A DNA stretch of 64,000 nucleotides from an uncultured Hyphomicrobiales bacterium (GCA_903861645.1 CAIOVE010000011.1:1-64000); one strand, 5' to 3'. Numbered from the stretch's first letter, positions 29,619 to 39,151 are shown. Numbers and translations are program-made. Notes: generated from the letters alone by a model not told the origin.

Positions 29619-31235
29619 TCAGGCCAGCGCCCCCAGCGCCTCGGCGGCGTCGCCCGGCTTCCACCAGGGCTTGAGTCCGAGGTCGCGGGCAATGATGCCC
29701 GCCGCGATATAGCCGGCGCCGCCGGAGATGGCGCCGCCGGGGTGCGCGGCGGAGCCGGCCATGTAGAGATTGGGCACGGGCGTGCGGTAGCCGAAATGGT
29801 TGTACATGACCTGCTCGGCGTTGAAGGCGCCCATGAATATGTCGCCGTGGCGCATGTTGATGAGCTCCCGCGTATATTCGCGACCGGTATAAACGGCCTT
29901 GGCGAGAATATTGTCGCGGGTCATGTTCGGGCAGTAGCGCGCGAAGGTCTCGATGATCTTCTCGGAGAACTCCTCCTTGAAATCCTCGTGGCTCTGGCCC
30001 GACAGGTCGGGGTCGATCGGCATGACGTGCCAGCAATAGGTCGTGTGCTTGCCGGGCGGCGCCTGCGTCGGGTCGAGCAGGCTGAGCGGCCCCGAGCCAA
30101 ACTGGGTGAGACGCGGCGGGCGGTTCGCCTTGACGTCCTCGAAGGCCGAGAACAGATCCTCCATGCTGTCGGCGCCGATGCTCCACTTGAGCGCCCGGTT
30201 GATATTGGGATCGAACTTTTCGGCGGCGAAACGCGGGCTTTCATTCAGCGCGAGATGGACGCCGAAGATCGACCAGTTCGTGTACTGGAACTTGTCCAGC
30301 TTTTCGAGGAAGGGCGCGGAGAGCTGCGACCGGCCCACCAGATTCTCGAAGGTCTGATGCACGTCGATGGCGCTGGCGACGAACTGGCGGGCGCGCACGG
30401 TGCGGCCATCGGCCAGTTCGATGCCGGTGGCGCGCCCGTTTTCGAGCACGACGCGGCTGATGTTGACCTGCGGCTGGAAGGTTCCGCCAGCGGCGATGAA
30501 GGTTTCCATCAGGCCGCGCGCCAGATTGAACGAACCGCCCTGACAGAGCTGATAGCCCGTCTCGAGATCGAAGGCGCGAATGACCGAGCCGGTGGGGCTC
30601 GTCTTCGACATGGTGTCGGTGAGCCAGGTGCCGAACAGCGACACCTTGAACAGGAACAGCAACTTGACGTGTTCGTTCTCGAACAGCTCTTCCACCACGT
30701 CGAGCGGCTGGCGCTGGCTGATCGCCAGAAAATCGCGCCCGATGTCGGACTTCGCCAGAAACGCCTCGCGCTCGGCAAGCGGCAGGGGCTCGGCGTAGCG
30801 CTCGGGGATCAGAATGCGCGCGGTGATTTCCTCGGCGCGCTTGTTCCACTCGCGGAAGGTTCGCGCGTCCTTCGCCGAGAAGCGCGCCACGTTGGCGATG
30901 GTTTCCTCGCGGTCGCGCCCGAACACGAGCGCCGAACCGTCGCGGTGCGCCTGCCCGAATTCATAACGCGGCGTGATATAGGTGACGCGATCCTCGAGCC
31001 CGAGATCGCGAAACCACGGCGTCTCGGAAATGCTGAAATGATTGATGGAATGAAGGTTGTGATAGAAGCCCGGCAAGGTGGCTTCCTTGGTCATCAGGCC
31101 GCCGCCATAGTCCAGCCGGCGATCGACGATGAGAATTTTCAGGCCGGCGCGCGCGAGATAACTCCCCAGCACGAGGCCCTGATGACCCGCGCCGATGATG
31201 ATCCCGTCATAGGTTTTTTCAAGGGCCCTGCTCAC
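29619..31235 (-). CDS. Phytoene-dehydrogenase-like FAD oxidoreductase
   Basis: 538 residues. N-terminal dinucleotide motif GIIIGAGHQGL with the adjacent acidic end of the Rossmann fold. The C-terminal FAD motif is NLYMAGSAAHPGGAISGGAGYIAAG, typical of CrtI/COG1233 proteins. No carotenoid genes are nearby and the closest branch is an uncharacterised NAD(P)/FAD-dependent group, so the substrate is open. It starts at GTG 31235 with GGGAGGAT just upstream. It may be in one transcript with the MsbA-like gene 47 bases downstream. Confidence 0.85.
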   Translation of the reverse strand: MSRALEKTYDGIIIGAGHQGLVLGSYLARAGLKILIVDRRLDYGGGLMTKEATLPGFYHNLHSINHFSISETPWFRDLGLEDRVTYITPRYEFGQAHRDGSALVFGRDREETIANVARFSAKDARTFREWNKRAEEITARILIPERYAEPLPLAEREAFLAKSDIGRDFLAISQRQPLDVVEELFENEHVKLLFLFKVSLFGTWLTDTMSKTSPTGSVIRAFDLETGYQLCQGGSFNLARGLMETFIAAGGTFQPQVNISRVVLENGRATGIELADGRTVRARQFVASAIDVHQTFENLVGRSQLSAPFLEKLDKFQYTNWSIFGVHLALNESPRFAAEKFDPNINRALKWSIGADSMEDLFSAFEDVKANRPPRLTQFGSGPLSLLDPTQAPPGKHTTYCWHVMPIDPDLSGQSHEDFKEEFSEKIIETFARYCPNMTRDNILAKAVYTGREYTRELINMRHGDIFMGAFNAEQVMYNHFGYRTPVPNLYMAGSAAHPGGAISGGAGYIAAGIIARDLGLKPWWKPGDAAEALGALA

Positions 31236-31995: not shown

Positions 31996-32976
31996 GTGGG
32001 CATTCTGGTCAATGGCGTCTGGACCGACGAGACCCTCGCCGAGGAAACCGGCGGCGCCGGCGACTTTCGCCGCAAGGAATCTCATTTTCGCGACCGCATC
32101 ACGGCCGATGGCTCATCGGGCTACAAGGCCGAGACCGGGCGCTATCATCTTTATGTCGCGCATGGCTGCCCGTGGGCGCATCGCACGCTGATCTACCGCG
32201 CCGTCAAGGGGCTCGCGGACGCGATCACCGTCGCCTACGCGCAACCCCATGTGCGCGAACAGGGCTGGACCTATGAGCGCAACGCGCGCTTTCCCGAATG
32301 CACGCCCGACGAGGTCAACGGGTTTCATTACCTGCACGAAGCCTATGCGGCGGCCGAGCCCGGCTACACAGGCAAGGTCACCGTGCCGACGCTATGGGAC
32401 AAGAAGACCCGCAAGATCGTCAACAATGAATCCTCCGAAATCATCCGGATGCTGAATTCGGCATTTCGCGGCGTCGCCGGCAACGATCTCGACTTCTATC
32501 CGGTCGAGTTGCGCGCCGAAATCGACGCGCTGAACGCGCGCATCTACGAGACGGTGAACAATGGCGTCTATCGCTGCGGCTTCGCAAAATCGCAGGGCGC
32601 CTACGACGAATCCTACAGAGCCCTGTTCGAAACGCTCGACTTTCTGGAGGAGCGCCTGTCGCGCCAGCGGTATCTTGTCGGCGACCGCGTGACCGAGGCC
32701 GACTGGCGCCTGCTGCCGACGCTCGTGCGTTTCGACGTCGCGTATTTTTCTTTGTTCAAATGCAATCGCCAGCGCATCGAGGATTATCGTCATCTCTCGA
32801 ATTACACGCGCGATCTCGTCGCGACGTCCGGCGTGGCGGCGACGGTGTTTCCGGCGCAATATGTTGCTAATTACTATTCAATCCTGCGGTGCAACCCGAC
32901 GGGCATCATTCCCGGCGGCGTACCCGTCGACCTGTCGCGGCCGCATGACCGCGACAGGCTTTTTCCGCTGAATTAA
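31996..32976 (+). CDS. Glutathionyl-hydroquinone reductase-like GST (ECM4/YqjG family)
   Basis: 326 residues. The thioredoxin-like domain has the catalytic Cys58 in HGCPWAHRTL, the mark of xi-class GSTs which reduce glutathionyl-hydroquinones. The C-terminal helical domain includes FLEERLSRQRYLVGDRVTEADWRL. GTG start. Its stop overlaps the stop of the convergent flavin monooxygenase by 4 bases. The pairing recalls PcpF with PcpB of chlorophenol pathways, but function here is inference. Confidence 0.88.
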   Translation: MGILVNGVWTDETLAEETGGAGDFRRKESHFRDRITADGSSGYKAETGRYHLYVAHGCPWAHRTLIYRAVKGLADAITVAYAQPHVREQGWTYERNARFPECTPDEVNGFHYLHEAYAAAEPGYTGKVTVPTLWDKKTRKIVNNESSEIIRMLNSAFRGVAGNDLDFYPVELRAEIDALNARIYETVNNGVYRCGFAKSQGAYDESYRALFETLDFLEERLSRQRYLVGDRVTEADWRLLPTLVRFDVAYFSLFKCNRQRIEDYRHLSNYTRDLVATSGVAATVFPAQYVANYYSILRCNPTGIIPGGVPVDLSRPHDRDRLFPLN

Positions 32977-34562
32977 TCGAGGCCCGCCACCTTGCGAAGC
33001 GCGCCGGCGACATCCACCGGCGCCGCCTCGCCCGCCCAAGCCACGTATTGATCGGGGCGCACGAGCACCAGCGCCGCCTCGAAATCCTCGCGCCCGCCGG
33101 CCCGCGTGTCGCGCACCACCTTCAACGGCACGCCCAGCGCCTTGGCTTGCGTCTCGAAGGCCGCGACATCGCTGGCCGCCGCGTCGAAGGCGAAGAGCAC
33201 GAAGCCGTCGCCCAGTTCCTCGAACACGTTGCGACCCGACGACAACGACCGGGGCGCGAGATGATGCCCCGCGCGCGCCTTGAACATGTAATTGCCACGC
33301 GCGCTGGTGACGCCGCCCGGCGGTCCGAACACGATGGACGAGCCCTCGTAATTCGGCTCGAAGTTCGAGACGATGGGGCCCGCGCCGGTCTTGAGTTCGG
33401 CCCAGTCGCGCGCGAAAGCTTCCGGATCCTTGACGGGATCATGGCGGTTGATGATCTCGCCTTCCCACTTGATGCGCGCGGCGATGAATTCCTCGCCGAC
33501 CATCTTGAAGATCGGGCGACGTTCCTCATCGTAGGAATTCAGCAGTTTCTCGCCGCCCCAGCCGTTGATGCGCGCGGCGAGCTTCCAGGCGAGATTGGCT
33601 GAGTCCTCCAGGCCGTTGTTGACGCCAAAGCCGCCATAGGGCGGATGCGAATGGGCGGCGTCGCCGGCGATCAGCACGCGGACCGCGCGATATTTCCGCG
33701 CCACCTGCACGCGCAAGTCCCAGAAGCCGACATGCTCGAATTCACAGGCGAACTTGAAGCCCGCCGCCTTGTGCAACAGCGCCGTGAAATCATAATTGTC
33801 GCGCGTGGTGTCGGGCGGCACGGGCGCGTGGAAAAAGAAGGTTTCCTCCGGATCGACGCGCCCGAAGAACTGCCAGTAGCCATTCAGTTCCGGGTCCATC
33901 GAGCGATAGGTCGAGCGCACGGGAAAACGCTTCAGACCCTCGTTGAACTCGCGCGACTTGAACACCGCGAGCACCATGATCTGATCGAAATCGGTGCCGT
34001 CGCGCTTGATGCCGCCCTGCTCGCGCACGATCGAATGGCCGCCATCGCAGCCAACAACATAGTCGGCCTCCAGCGTCTCGCGCTTGCCGTCGCCCGCCTC
34101 GTGCTCGACGCCGACGCGCACGCCATTATTGTCCTGCTCGACGGAGACGACCTTCCAGCCGAAGCGCGCCTCGATGGGCGCCAGCGACGCCATGCGCCGC
34201 CGCAGCGCCTTCTCGAACTGGTATTGCGGCATGCGGTCGTTCTTCTGGAAATAGTACTGGCCGACGATCTCGCGCCCCTCGAAGCTGTGCCAGTGCTCGT
34301 TCATCAAATCCTTGTAGGCGACGATGCCGCTGGCGGGGACCTCGGGCGGCAGCAGGCGCGCGGCGCGCACCTCGTCGACGCACCCCCAGAAATAGAAATG
34401 TTCGAGCGTTCGTTGCGTCAGGTTCTGGCCGCGCGGCACGTTATGCATGCCCTCGCGGCGCTCGATCAGGATCGACGACACGCCGCGCTGGGCGAGATCA
34501 ATCGCCAGCCCGACGCCGACCGGTCCGCCGCCGACGATGATAACTTGTGTACGCTTGCCCAC
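32973..34562 (-). CDS. FAD-dependent aromatic monooxygenase (phenol hydroxylase/TfdB type)
   Basis: 529 residues, group A flavoprotein hydroxylase. GGGPVG (11-16) binds the FAD ADP part; VVGCDGGHS is the DG motif; VLIAGDAAHSHPPYGGFGVNNGLEDSANLAWKL is the GD motif. The C-terminal thioredoxin-like domain of the TfdB/MhpA branch is present. The start is GTG 34562 with GGGGAGA about 7 bases upstream. It hydroxylates a phenolic or N-heteroaromatic ring with NAD(P)H and O2. It diverges from the ABC-amidase operon across 275 bases that hold no other gene and presumably both promoters. Confidence 0.88.
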   Translation of the reverse strand: MGKRTQVIIVGGGPVGVGLAIDLAQRGVSSILIERREGMHNVPRGQNLTQRTLEHFYFWGCVDEVRAARLLPPEVPASGIVAYKDLMNEHWHSFEGREIVGQYYFQKNDRMPQYQFEKALRRRMASLAPIEARFGWKVVSVEQDNNGVRVGVEHEAGDGKRETLEADYVVGCDGGHSIVREQGGIKRDGTDFDQIMVLAVFKSREFNEGLKRFPVRSTYRSMDPELNGYWQFFGRVDPEETFFFHAPVPPDTTRDNYDFTALLHKAAGFKFACEFEHVGFWDLRVQVARKYRAVRVLIAGDAAHSHPPYGGFGVNNGLEDSANLAWKLAARINGWGGEKLLNSYDEERRPIFKMVGEEFIAARIKWEGEIINRHDPVKDPEAFARDWAELKTGAGPIVSNFEPNYEGSSIVFGPPGGVTSARGNYMFKARAGHHLAPRSLSSGRNVFEELGDGFVLFAFDAAASDVAAFETQAKALGVPLKVVRDTRAGGREDFEAALVLVRPDQYVAWAGEAAPVDVAGALRKVAGLD

Positions 34563-34837
34563 GACATTTCTCCCCGCGAATTTTCCTCGCCTTCTGCTAG
34601 CCGGGTTGGCGCGCAAACTCAACGCGGGTCGCCCCGGCGGGCCCGCGGCATTTGGCGCCTTTTGCGCATGCGATCGCCCTTTTTGGGGGCGCCCGTGTTC
34701 ATCGCTATCGCGCGGGATTCGGGTCACCCGCGCGCCCGACGCGGAAAAATAGCCCTTCGAGACGCGCCGCGGCGGGTGGCACGACGCATGCATCATCTGT
34801 TTTGCAATTTCGCTCACGCCCCAATGGGAGGTCGAGC

Positions 34838-35626
34838 ATGGCCGTGCGACCGAAACTTGTTCTCGACAATGTGTCGATGGTTTTCGAAACCAAGGGCTCG
34901 ACCTTCACCGCCCTCGCGCCCGTTCATCTGGAAGTGCCCGCCGGCAAGTTCATCAGCCTCATCGGGCCTTCTGGCTGCGGCAAGAGCACCATTTTCAATA
35001 TTGTCGCGGGCTTGCAGCCGCCGACCACGGGCAAGGTGCTGATCGATGGCGAGGACGCCACCGGCTTCATCGGCCAGGTCGGCTACATGCTGCAAAAAGA
35101 CCTTCTGCTGCCGTGGCGCACCGTGCTCGACAATGTCTGCCTCGGCATGGAAATTCGGGGAACGCCGATGGCCGAGGCGCGCGACCGCGCCGCGCCCCTG
35201 CTGCGCAAATATGGTCTCGGCGGTTTTGAGTCCCTCTACCCGGCCTCGCTGTCGGGCGGCATGCGCCAGCGCGCCGCCCTGCTGCGCACATTGCTGGTCG
35301 ACATGGACGTCGTGCTGCTCGACGAGCCCTTTGGCGCGCTCGACGCGCAGACGAAGGCGCAGATGCAGGAATGGCTCCTGCAACTGTTCAATGACTTCGG
35401 CCGCACGGTGGTTTTCGTGACCCATGACGTCGAGGAAGCCGTTTTCCTCTCCGACGACATCTACGTCATGGCGAGCCGCCCCGGCCGCGTGATCGAGCAA
35501 TTGCCGATCGATCTGCCGCGTCCGCGCGACCGCTCCATCGTCAGTTCGCCGCGCTTTGTCGCCATGAAGAAATATTGCCTCGACCTGCTGCACATGGAAG
35601 CCCCCGCGGCTCCCGTGGCGGCTTGA
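34838..35626 (+). CDS. ABC transporter ATP-binding protein (nitrate/sulfonate/taurine type)
   Basis: 262 residues. Walker A GPSGCGKST (43-51), signature LSGGMRQR, Walker B VVLLDEPFGALD and the switch histidine in VTHDVEEA. The ATG follows GGGAGG by 6 bases. First gene of the operon with a permease (27 bases on), a binding protein and two amidases. The class imports small organic ions or metabolites. Confidence 0.92.
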   Translation: MAVRPKLVLDNVSMVFETKGSTFTALAPVHLEVPAGKFISLIGPSGCGKSTIFNIVAGLQPPTTGKVLIDGEDATGFIGQVGYMLQKDLLLPWRTVLDNVCLGMEIRGTPMAEARDRAAPLLRKYGLGGFESLYPASLSGGMRQRAALLRTLLVDMDVVLLDEPFGALDAQTKAQMQEWLLQLFNDFGRTVVFVTHDVEEAVFLSDDIYVMASRPGRVIEQLPIDLPRPRDRSIVSSPRFVAMKKYCLDLLHMEAPAAPVAA

Positions 35627-35653
35627 ACAAGGGTCATCATCGCGAGGTCGTCT

Positions 35654-36526
35654 ATGACCAGTAAATCGACCGCCTTCCCGTCTCCCGGACCGCTCAGCCT
35701 GTTCGGCGCGCGGCTTCGCCGCGCGGATGGGCCAAGGCGCGCGCGCCGACGCCTGCCGACGCGGCGCGACTGGCCGAGCTGGAGCATTGTCGCCTTTCAG
35801 ATCGGCTTCCTCGTCGCGCTGATCGCGCTGTGGGAAATTGGCGCGCGCGTCGGCTTCATCGATCCGTTCTTCTGGTCGTCGCCAAGCGCGATCTGGAGCA
35901 CGGGCGTCGTCTATTTCACCGAGGGCAACGCCTTCGTCGACATCGCGCACACCTTTCGCTCGACCTTGCTGGGCTTTTTCATCGGCACGACGGCGGGCGG
36001 CCTGCTGGGGCTTTCCTTCTGGTGGTCGAGCAACTACGCGCGCATCGTGCAGCCCTACATTATCTGCCTGGAATCGCTGCCAAAGCTGGCGTTGGCGCCG
36101 CTCATCATTCTGGTGTTCGGCATGGGGCTCGCCTCCAAGGTCGCCATCGCCACCGCCCTCACGCTTGTCGTCTCAACGCTCACCGCCTTCGCCGGCGTGC
36201 AGGCGGTCGACAAGGATCAGGAGAAGCTTTTCTACTCGCTTGGCGCCAGCCGCTGGCAGGTTTTCACCAAGCTCGTCGCGCCCTTTTGCGTGCCCTGGCT
36301 GATCTCCATCCTGCGCGTCAACATCGGCCTCGCGTTGACCGGTTCGATCGTCGGCGAATTCGTCGCCTCACAGTTCGGACTTGGCCGCACCATCCTTTAC
36401 GCCGGGCAAACCTATGAAATCGCGCTCGTGTGGGTCGCGGTGTTCGTCCTCTCGGCGTTGTCCATGGTCATGTATGTCGCCGTTTCATGGCTCGAAAGCG
36501 TGCTGCGCAAGGGCGCGCGCAACTAG
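35654..36526 (+). CDS. ABC transporter permease (SsuC/TauC type)
   Basis: 290 residues. A short basic N-terminus, then about six membrane helices; the BPD-type EAA loop lies around SLGASRWQVFTKLVAPFCVPWL. It pairs with the preceding ATPase. TauC/SsuC-like length. Confidence 0.9.
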   Translation: MTSKSTAFPSPGPLSLFGARLRRADGPRRARRRLPTRRDWPSWSIVAFQIGFLVALIALWEIGARVGFIDPFFWSSPSAIWSTGVVYFTEGNAFVDIAHTFRSTLLGFFIGTTAGGLLGLSFWWSSNYARIVQPYIICLESLPKLALAPLIILVFGMGLASKVAIATALTLVVSTLTAFAGVQAVDKDQEKLFYSLGASRWQVFTKLVAPFCVPWLISILRVNIGLALTGSIVGEFVASQFGLGRTILYAGQTYEIALVWVAVFVLSALSMVMYVAVSWLESVLRKGARN

Positions 36527-36556
36527 GGCGCGTCGCCTTCAAACAAGGAGTTTGTC

Positions 36557-37555
36557 ATGCATGGATTGACACGTCGCCTCGCCGTCGCCGCGCTCATGGG
36601 CGTGGGCGTCGCGACCAGCGCGATGGCGCAGGAAAAGAAGACGCTGATCGTCGCCGAGCCGGTGCATGGCACGGGCTATCTGCCGTTGTATGTGGCGATC
36701 CAGAAGGGGTTTTTCGCCGACGAGGGCATCGAGGTGAAAATTCTCACCATCGAAAGCGGCTCCGGCCACACCAACGCCGTTCTGTCGGGGCAGGCCTTCG
36801 CCTTCATTGGCGGCCCCGAGCATGACGCCTTCGCCAAGCTGAAGGGGGCGGAACTGCGCGCGGTCGTCAACGTGGTCGACCGCGGCAACGTCTATTTCGT
36901 CACGCCCAAGGGCAAGGAACCCGCCGCGGGACAGTCGATGGCCGAGTATTTCAAGGGCAAGACGATCGCGCCCGGCCCCTATGGCGGCACGCCAAATTCG
37001 ATCACGCGCTATCTGATGAAGAAGTACAATCTCGATGCGACGAAGGACGTCACGCTTGTCGAGACAACGAGTTCCGCCGTCATCGCGGCGGTCAAGACCG
37101 GACAGGCGCAGATCGGCAATGTCACCGAGCCCTTCATCACGCGCGGCATCAAGGAAGGCATCTGGGGCGAGCCGTTCATCAATATTCCCAAGGAGCTTGG
37201 CCCCTACGCCTATTCGACGCTGAACGTACGCCTCGAGTCCATCAATAAGGAGCCGGAAACGGTTCAGAAATTCGTCAACGGCGTGGTCAAGGGACTGGCC
37301 TTCACCTTCGCCAATCCCGAAGAGGCGATGAAGATCGCCAAGAAGGAATTCCCGACGATGGCGGACGAGGACATCGCCGCCACGGTCACGCGCTCGCTCA
37401 AGGATGAGATGTGGAGCAAGGACGGAACGATTTCACGCAAATCCTGGGAGACAGCGCAAGCGGTCGTGCGCGAGGCCAACATCCTCAAGCAGGATGTCGC
37501 CTACGACGACATCATCGACATGCGCTTTCTGAAGGGCAAGTCGCCCACCAATTGA
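36557..37555 (+). CDS. ABC transporter substrate-binding protein (NMT1/SsuA-like)
   Basis: 332 residues. Signal peptide to about residue 24 (GVATSAMAQ). The NMT1/THI5-like domain follows: GTGYLPLYVAIQKGFFADEG, SGSGHTNAVLSGQAFAFIGG. The ligand cannot be read; the family binds taurine, sulfonates, thiamine precursors, nitrate and various N-compounds. AAGGAG precedes the ATG. Between transport genes and two amidases. Confidence 0.9.
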   Translation: MHGLTRRLAVAALMGVGVATSAMAQEKKTLIVAEPVHGTGYLPLYVAIQKGFFADEGIEVKILTIESGSGHTNAVLSGQAFAFIGGPEHDAFAKLKGAELRAVVNVVDRGNVYFVTPKGKEPAAGQSMAEYFKGKTIAPGPYGGTPNSITRYLMKKYNLDATKDVTLVETTSSAVIAAVKTGQAQIGNVTEPFITRGIKEGIWGEPFINIPKELGPYAYSTLNVRLESINKEPETVQKFVNGVVKGLAFTFANPEEAMKIAKKEFPTMADEDIAATVTRSLKDEMWSKDGTISRKSWETAQAVVREANILKQDVAYDDIIDMRFLKGKSPTN

Positions 37556-37593
37556 TCGCAAGCGAAACCACAGAGGTATCGAAGGAGTAGAAC

Positions 37594-38358
37594 ATGTCCG
37601 AGCCCATCTGGAATCAGTTCCTCACAGAGCGCGACAAGGAAGTCTTCGCCTACTCGGGCTATGGCGCGCGCGGCGGTTTTGGCAAGCGCCCGGCCTTGCT
37701 GGTCATCGACGTCAACTACGCTTTCTGTGGCGACAAGCCGGAGCCGATCCTCGAATCGATCAAGAAGTGGCGCAACTCGTGCGGCGAGGAAAGCTGGCCA
37801 GCGGTCGCCGCCATCAAGTCGTTGATCGACAAATCGCATGAAAAGGGCGTGCCGGTGATCTACACGACGGGCGTGCGCCGCGAGGATAACTGGGATTCGG
37901 GCTCTTGGAGTTGGAAGAACAGCCGCGGCGCGGAGAAGCCCGTGGTCGCGGCGAGCAATGTCGACGGCAACCAGATCGTCGAGGACATCGCGCCGGGGCC
38001 GCGCGACATCGTCATCCTCAAGCAGAAACCGTCGGGCTTCTTCGGCACGAACATGGCGAGCTACCTGACCTTGCTCGGCTGCGACTCGATCATCGTGACG
38101 GGCACGACAACCTCTGGCTGTGTGCGCGCCACCGTGCTCGACGCCTTCAGCCTGAATTACCGCGTCGCGCTTGCGGAGGAAGGCTGTTTCGACCGCTCAC
38201 AGGCGAGCCATGCGATCAATCTTTGCGACATGAACGCGAAATACGCCGACGTGGTCAAAACGGCGGAAGTCATTTCGTTCCTCGACACGTTGCCGGAAGG
38301 CATGTTCGACCTGCCCAGGGGCGCCACGGCGCCGCAGGCCAAGGCCGTCAACTATTGA
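37594..38358 (+). CDS. Isochorismatase-like cysteine amidohydrolase 1 (N-carbamoylsarcosine amidase type)
   Basis: 254 residues. The catalytic triad of the family is visible: Asp39 (LVIDVNYAF), Lys143 (LKQKPSGFFGT) and Cys176 (TTTSGCVRA). KPSGFFGT and the NLCDMNAKYADVV tail place it with N-carbamoylsarcosine amidase and maleamate amidase NicF rather than true isochorismatase. It should hydrolyse an amide or carbamoyl C-N bond, releasing ammonia. It follows the binding-protein gene by 38 bases, with GAAGGAG before the ATG. Confidence 0.88.
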   Translation: MSEPIWNQFLTERDKEVFAYSGYGARGGFGKRPALLVIDVNYAFCGDKPEPILESIKKWRNSCGEESWPAVAAIKSLIDKSHEKGVPVIYTTGVRREDNWDSGSWSWKNSRGAEKPVVAASNVDGNQIVEDIAPGPRDIVILKQKPSGFFGTNMASYLTLLGCDSIIVTGTTTSGCVRATVLDAFSLNYRVALAEEGCFDRSQASHAINLCDMNAKYADVVKTAEVISFLDTLPEGMFDLPRGATAPQAKAVNY

Positions 38359-38368
38359 GGAGGGCGGC

Positions 38369-39151
38369 ATGAGCAACGAGCGTATCTGGGACAAATACCT
38401 GACCGAACGCGACAAGGCGGTCTTCAAGACCTCCGGGTTTGGCGCCCGCGGCGGGTTCGGCAATCGGCCCGCCCTGTTGATCATCGACGTCAGCTACGGA
38501 TTCGCGGGCGACAGGCCCGAGCCAATCCTTGAATCCATCAAGCGCTGGAGCAATTCCTGCGGCGCCGAAAGCTGGGACGCGATCGCCGTCATCAAGGAAC
38601 TGGCCTCCGGCTTTCGCGCCAAGAAACTGCCCGTCATCTACACGACGGGCGTCAACCGCGCCGACGGCTGGGATGTTGGCAGCTGGGCGTGGAAAAACAC
38701 GCGCACCAGTGAAAGCCTGCCGACACCCACGCAGAATATCGACGCCAACGCCATCGTCGCCGAGATCGCGCCACAGGCGCAGGATCTCGTCGTTCTCAAG
38801 CAGAAGCCGTCCGGCTTCTTCGGCTCCAACCTGCAAAGCTATCTGCAACTTCTGGGCGCCGACAGCGTGATTGTCACGGGCACGACGACATCGGGCTGCG
38901 TGCGCGCCACGGTCATCGACGCCTTCAGCCTCAACTTCCACGTCGCCATCGCGGAGGACGGCTGCTTTGATCGCTCGCAGGCGAGCCACGCGATCAACCT
39001 TTGCGACATGCACGCCAAATACGCCGACGTCATGCCGGGCGCGGAAATACTCGACTACATCAAGACGCTGCCCGACGATCTCTTTCCCGGCCTGCCCAAG
39101 GGCGGGCCGGCGCATGAAAAGCCAAAGCTGAAGATTGTCTCCTCGGCCTGA
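38369..39151 (+). CDS. Isochorismatase-like cysteine amidohydrolase 2 (tandem paralogue)
   Basis: 260 residues. Strongly similar to the preceding protein over the full length (shared TERDK.VF, FGARGGFG or similar, TTGV.R, KQKPSGFFG, GTTTSGCVRATV, CFDRSQASHAINLCDM). Triad Asp40, Lys144, Cys177 intact. It begins 10 bases after the first amidase with GAGGAGG before the ATG. Both copies look functional; they may form hetero-oligomers or act on successive amide groups (inference). Confidence 0.88.
   Translation: MSNERIWDKYLTERDKAVFKTSGFGARGGFGNRPALLIIDVSYGFAGDRPEPILESIKRWSNSCGAESWDAIAVIKELASGFRAKKLPVIYTTGVNRADGWDVGSWAWKNTRTSESLPTPTQNIDANAIVAEIAPQAQDLVVLKQKPSGFFGSNLQSYLQLLGADSVIVTGTTTSGCVRATVIDAFSLNFHVAIAEDGCFDRSQASHAINLCDMHAKYADVMPGAEILDYIKTLPDDLFPGLPKGGPAHEKPKLKIVSSA

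Follow-up and report, generated by a model that had tools for sequence, protein, structure and literature searches.

What does a bacterium take up when the genes of an ATP-binding cassette (ABC) importer run straight into those of two sister amidohydrolases, and what do the two enzymes do with it? The question is posed by a locus in a 64,000-nucleotide stretch of the genome of an uncultured Hyphomicrobiales bacterium (GCA_903861645.1, CAIOVE010000011.1:1-64000; hereafter, the window). At positions 34838 to 39151, on the + strand, five complete open reading frames (ORFs) lie head to tail, encoding an ATPase, a permease, a periplasmic substrate-binding protein (SBP) and two isochorismatase-fold hydrolases, here called H1 and H2. 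A preliminary description had read these tightly spaced genes as an importer with tandem N-carbamoylsarcosine amidase-like hydrolases, serving uptake and stepwise hydrolysis of a nitrogen compound; its gene content, order and coordinates proved correct. We find that the module is genuine, a conserved bacterial unit of five genes. Our best explanation, which we favor modestly, is a self-contained catabolic module that combines import of a small nitrogen compound with cleavage of the C-N bonds of terminal amide or carbamoyl groups by two enzymes of diverged specificity.

RESULTS

Conservation of the module. A scan of GTDB genomes returned 79 loci (L034 and L133 are on the same contig, as are L078 and L134, and each pair was counted once). 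The ATPase, permease and SBP genes stand immediately 5′ of H1 in 34 of the 54 H1-clade loci whose upstream sequence is long enough to judge; these come mainly from Alphaproteobacteria, with some Betaproteobacteria, and include Rhizobium, Martelella, Aurantimonas, Roseomonas and Xanthobacteraceae. All five genes stand in the order of the window in a further 16 loci, most of which are Beijerinckiaceae-like; one of them (L034) comes from a member of the genus to which the window belongs. H1 is immediately upstream of H2 in 21 of 22 H2-clade loci. The genome neighborhood search proposed in the preliminary description has thus been carried out, and it finds the amidases linked in relatives; the linkage of the twins holds from the side of H2, but H1 is far more widespread without H2 than with it, and the importer with H1 alone is found in many genomes, for example those of Martelella radicis DSM 28101 and Rhizobium sp. 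BK313. Occurrence is patchy, with a close homologue in 15 of 297 sampled genomes of the order and 9 of 99 of the family.

Median ratios of nonsynonymous to synonymous substitution rates were 0.10 for H1, 0.13 for H2 and 0.19 for the SBP, indicating purifying selection (simple counting method, nine orthologues per gene, with high synonymous divergence). Because many independent genomes share this gene order, and because these three genes are under purifying selection, the module is more than a chance assembly. The genes on both flanks vary from genome to genome, even within the window's genus, and for this reason we regard the five genes as a self-contained unit.

The gaps between successive genes are 27, 30, 38 and 10 bp, which fits a single transcription unit. 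Shine-Dalgarno-like sequences precede the SBP, H1 and H2 genes; the mechanically called ATPase ORF begins at 34652, and the ATG at 34838 has GGAGG before it (Table 1). A scan for sigma-70 promoters and terminators turned up nothing resembling a promoter, and terminator-like sites were not in excess. In many relatives a LysR gene lies behind H2; the module in the window has none, and a search of the window's own genome for that regulator gave weak matches only.

Table 1. Genes of the module and codons of the catalytic residues, in window coordinates
Feature	Position	Strand	Remarks
ABC importer ATPase, SsuB/TauB/NrtD-like, 262 amino acids	34838-35626	+	PF00005, 102 bits; first gene of module, conserved
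ABC importer permease, TauC/SsuC-like, 290 amino acids	35654-36526	+	PF00528, 84 bits
Periplasmic SBP, NMT1/THI5-like fold, 332 amino acids	36557-37555	+	PF09084, 88 bits
H1, isochorismatase-fold cysteine amidohydrolase, 254 amino acids	37594-38358	+	PF00857, 107.3 bits
H1 catalytic Asp39 codon	37708-37710	+	Aligned with D51 of 1nba, invariant
H1 catalytic Lys143 codon	38020-38022	+	Aligned with K144 of 1nba, invariant
H1 nucleophile Cys176 codon	38119-38121	+	Aligned with C177 of 1nba, invariant
H2, isochorismatase-fold cysteine amidohydrolase paralogous to H1, 260 amino acids	38369-39151	+	PF00857, 107.5 bits
H2 catalytic Asp40 codon	38486-38488	+	Aligned with D51 of 1nba, invariant
H2 catalytic Lys144 codon	38798-38800	+	Aligned with K144 of 1nba, invariant
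H2 nucleophile Cys177 codon	38897-38899	+	Aligned with C177 of 1nba, invariant

The two hydrolases. By Pfam, the five proteins fall into ABC_tran, BPD_transp_1, NMT1/NMT1_2 (THI5-like) and, twice, Isochorismatase (PF00857; gathering cutoff, 27 bits), and every component is thus of a known family; none of the five reached an NCBIfam equivalog cutoff. Both hydrolases belong to the PF00857 superfamily by profile score and triad, and H1 also by the fold of its model. We aligned about 80 H1- and H2-clade proteins with four solved enzymes, namely, the N-carbamoylsarcosine amidohydrolases 1nba and 26st and the maleamate amidases Ami (4l07/4l08) and NicF (3ot4/3uao). The Asp-Lys-Cys triad is invariant across the H1 clade (D39/K143/C176) and the H2 clade (D40/K144/C177), so the full-length paralogues do carry the intact triads that had been claimed for them. 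The TTSGC nucleophile region and an Asp-Arg pair (H1 residues 200/201, after the nucleophile helix) are likewise conserved and are common to all four reference enzymes. Nearly invariant marks of the subfamily are W6, an insertion with W59/N61/S62/C63/G64/W68 and a Trp-rich segment (R96-x-D98-x-W100-D101-..-S104-W105-x-W107-K108); the insertion and the Trp-rich segment are mostly missing from the reference enzymes.

The AlphaFold model of H1 (predicted local distance difference test [pLDDT] score, 90.1) has an intact fold, and the structural inactivity of the triads that might have overturned the proposal was not borne out. Its nearest structures (the alignments from which the models were built contained no plasmid-record sequences) are maleamate amidase 4l07 (Z score, 28.4; root mean square deviation, 2.2 over 207 residues) and 1nba (Z score, 28.3), with RutB, TrtA and BiuH at about 25. 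Sequence profiles rank the nearest PDB entries as 26st, 1nba, 4l07 and 3ot4, with N-carbamoylsarcosine amidohydrolase as the best match (1e-46 and 2e-43). The assignment to an N-carbamoylsarcosine amidase-like branch therefore stands, the nearest enzymes by profile as well as by fold being N-carbamoylsarcosine amidohydrolase and maleamate amidase. An activity, however, does not follow from it: the characterized N-carbamoylsarcosine amidases (EC 3.5.1.59) are only about 30% identical to H1 and H2 and have a different gene context, and no creatinine-pathway gene was recognized among the annotated neighbors (no genome search was aimed at one). Identity to Ami and NicF, which share with our enzymes the triad and an S-x-F motif after the catalytic Lys, is also about 30%, and no nicotinate-pathway (nic) genes were recognized around the module. 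RutB (ureidoacrylate amidohydrolase), which shares the fold, is the top NCBIfam match of both hydrolases, but its identity (TIGR03614) was rejected at 49.2 (H1) and 45.7 (H2) of 378 bits, and the module lacks rut genes.

Divergence and history of the twins. H1 and H2 share 64% identity across 256 alignment columns, and only seven positions are fixed differently between the two clades at the level of at least 85%. One of these, H1 Asn41/H2 Ser42, lies two residues past the catalytic Asp and corresponds by spacing to BiuH Gln38, which is listed as a conserved residue of the active site in this family (PMC5806882). Another difference, A43 in H1 and G44 in H2, adjoins the counterpart of BiuH Phe41, which is part of the substrate loop. 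Because these differences fall at or near active-site positions, they argue for different specificities of H1 and H2, as far as residue position can indicate.

In the tree, the H1 clade (support, 98/91) and the H2 clade (100/91) each span many genera. A recent local duplication of H1 into H2 was rejected, since the two are separate, supported clades. Branching first within the H2 clade are L011 and L046, both of which sit away from the module; L046 adjoins a peptide-type ABC transporter. As part of the explanation that we modestly favor, H2 would be an older paralogous lineage, conserved separately from H1 and diverged in specificity. At one locus (L047, 10900-11700), H2 is split across two frames, because the gene is disrupted or because the assembly is wrong.

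The importer. An ATPase, a BPD_transp_1 permease and an NMT1-family SBP in one operon make this a NitT/TauT-type importer, with the same components as TauABC, SsuABC, NrtABC, ThiXYZ-type systems and the thiamin-binding 4nmy. The single permease gene presumably yields a homodimer. The module nevertheless differs from these importers in that its scores lie far under the equivalog cutoffs: the best NCBIfam match of the ATPase, a taurine ABC ATP-binding model, reached 215 of 357 bits, the permease scored 73 of 342 bits against the TauC model, and every cutoff for a ligand subtype (taurine, nitrate, sulfonate and others) was missed. Therefore, no ligand can be assigned on this basis. The SBP carries a signal-like stretch at its N terminus, and its AlphaFold model (pLDDT, 89.7) has as its nearest folds 4nmy (thiamin bound), 3qsl, Thi5, ThiY (3ix1), CmpA, NrtA and SsuA. 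Solved relatives include binders of thiamin, formylaminopyrimidine, nitrate, bicarbonate and sulfonate; judging from these relatives, the ligand is likely to be small, and the fold does not fix its compound class.

Related loci. Related loci provide clues to the substrate. A sister clade of H1 and H2, about 50 to 55% identical to H1, has its genes immediately 3′ of a gene of the hydantoinase/dihydropyrimidinase/allantoinase family in 13 of 13 loci (L017 to L023, L111, L112 and L128 to L131). This constant association points to ring-opened ureides or imides; a hydantoinase-family neighbor is what one would expect beside an enzyme that completes the hydrolysis of such a compound. Two sister-clade plasmid loci also carry aconitase (acnA) and an isocitrate lyase/phosphoenolpyruvate mutase-family gene. 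At L098 and L104, two H1-like loci, the neighborhood includes a gene of the cyclic amidohydrolase family as well as a further NMT-type permease/ATPase. In Neorhizobium, the H1 module continues into genes for a major facilitator superfamily (MFS) transporter, an amidase and a RidA-type protein, with similar neighbors in Martelella and Aurantimonas. Betaproteobacterial H1-like genes (L075, L084, L088, L090 and L099) adjoin TcuB and a glucarate dehydratase-like gene; TcuA was confirmed over the curated cutoff in L090, and the other four clusters contain related genes.

Transporter and hydrolase also meet in other combinations. Sinorhizobium and Rhizobium plasmid loci have a different NMT1-type importer beside a hydrolase of the H1/H2 family, and a second locus in the window's own genome (L120:8527-12745; contig C19, 127.5 to 131.7 kb) encodes an isochorismatase-family hydrolase with an NMT1 SBP, permease and ATPase in another gene order. 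Such pairings of importer and hydrolase have probably arisen on more than one occasion. A second tandem hydrolase pair of the subfamily accompanies peptide-type ABC transporters in Salinarimonas, Pelagibacterium and others, and the clusters L078, L105, L115, L116 and L109 each hold a peptide-type ABC transporter, an MFS gene and two to four isochorismatase-family hydrolases; several such hydrolases with a transporter in one cluster is a recurrent arrangement.

Neighboring genes in the window. Divergent from the module, at 32973 to 34559 on the − strand, lies a gene for a flavin adenine dinucleotide (FAD)-dependent, aromatic-ring-hydroxylase-like monooxygenase. It was rejected as part of the system, not being adjacent to the module in relatives. 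A CrtO-like FAD oxidoreductase gene (29619 to 31235, − strand) scored 185 of 1000 bits against the beta-carotene ketolase cutoff, far under it.

DISCUSSION

On the explanation that we favor, the NMT1/THI5-type SBP would capture a small amide- or carbamoyl-bearing acid in the periplasm, and the permease and ATPase would bring it into the cytosol. There, the triad Cys thiolate of H1 or H2, assisted by the Asp and Lys and with an oxyanion hole formed from the backbone, would attack the terminal amide or carbamoyl carbon. Ammonia would be lost and the acyl-enzyme then hydrolyzed; alternatively, carbamate would be released and break down to ammonia and CO2. Attack by Cys through an acyl-enzyme has been described for BiuH and NicF (PMC5806882). 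The cell would gain nitrogen and an organic acid. H1 would be the importer's partner, acting on the imported compound, and H2 would take either the product of H1 or a second, related substrate. The most likely substrates are acids with a primary amide or N-carbamoyl group, such as arise from opened cyclic ureides or imides.

Several observations weigh against this explanation. NMT1/THI5-type proteins bind chemically diverse ligands. Twenty of the 54 testable H1-clade loci have no complete importer directly upstream, and many loci adjoin other genes, such as those for an old yellow enzyme-type oxidoreductase, TcuA/TcuB or beta-oxidation, so H1 can serve without the importer or in other pathways. 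Finally, no ring-opening, deaminating or carbon-pathway genes were found within the five-gene unit.

Rather than acting in sequence, the twins may work in parallel, with overlapping or different specificities or as a dosage pair, on a family of related imported compounds. The many genomes with the importer and H1 alone suit such an arrangement, as does the small number of fixed differences between the clades, with one in the active site, and we regard it as a real possibility, if short of an even one. However, H2 almost never occurs without H1, and both are under purifying selection; this would suit a dependence of H2 on H1, without proving an order of action. The more ambitious proposal is an undescribed nitrogen-scavenging pathway of many Alphaproteobacteria and some Betaproteobacteria, in which a dedicated NMT1/THI5-type importer supplies the specialized twins with one ureide or imide derived from a nitrogen heterocycle, and the twins strip it of two nitrogen groups, one after the other. 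We advance it tentatively and consider it rather unlikely. The main alternative concerning the substrate is that H1 and H2 are not decarbamoylases and instead hydrolyze maleamate-like half-amides of unsaturated or branched di- and tricarboxylic acids, the free acid entering central metabolism. Half-amides of polycarboxylic acids are favored by the neighbors of related genes: next to the betaproteobacterial H1-like genes are tricarballylate dehydrogenase (TcuA/TcuB) genes with scores over the curated cutoffs, and two sister-clade loci adjoin acnA and the isocitrate lyase/phosphoenolpyruvate mutase-family gene. In addition, the structures closest to H1 include Ami and NicF, and Ser42 of H2 occupies the position of Ami Ser30. 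None of these TcuA/TcuB or aconitase-type carbon genes lies near the module in the window, however, and N-carbamoylsarcosine amidohydrolase is as close by fold and closer by profile; on balance, we think half-amides unlikely.

Biuret or triuret utilization is a different matter. TrtA and BiuH belong to the same fold family, and trtA and biuH, which encode two isochorismatase-like hydrolases, are documented together in one cluster for triuret and biuret degradation (PMC7948467), a likeness to our twins. BiuH identity (NF050097) was rejected, with H1 and H2 reaching 45.4 and 38.1 of the 370-bit cutoff. Moreover, the substrate-binding Lys145 of BiuH is replaced by a conserved proline (P146 in H1, P147 in H2) three residues past the triad Lys, in a register confirmed by F149 and T152, which match BiuH Phe148 and Thr151. 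We consider biuret or triuret the least probable of the readings weighed here. Scarcely more probable is the inactivation of a signal or toxin (quorum quenching) instead of nutrition. HqiA, an N-acyl homoserine lactone lactonase, was reported in the broad N-carbamoylsarcosine amidase-like group (PMC5430456), but the hydrolases of the module are tightly linked to an importer with a periplasmic SBP. Thus, of the uptake-and-hydrolysis unit envisaged in the preliminary description, the co-inheritance of importer and hydrolase has held up, while biuret, one of the substrates suggested, is disfavored. In the open-access literature (most subscription journals fell outside the search), we found no description of the importer and twin hydrolase combination, nor anything relevant on NMT1-type importers with isochorismatases or on cis-aconitamide or citrazinate pathways. 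The belief that no characterized pathway has exactly this content survives to that extent, although paired hydrolases of this family are, as in trtA/biuH, already known.

At present, the locus is best described as an orphan catabolic module built from known families: a compact, conserved transporter and hydrolase unit with two diagnostic sequence clades. The compound handled is probably a small, nitrogen-containing one, from which ammonia or carbamate would be cut off by two specialized sister enzymes. If ureides, imides or half-amides are indeed handled, the module would add to the ways in which a class of soil and water nitrogen compounds is taken up and hydrolyzed, and it would give a name to many proteins whose annotation now goes no further than isochorismatase family.

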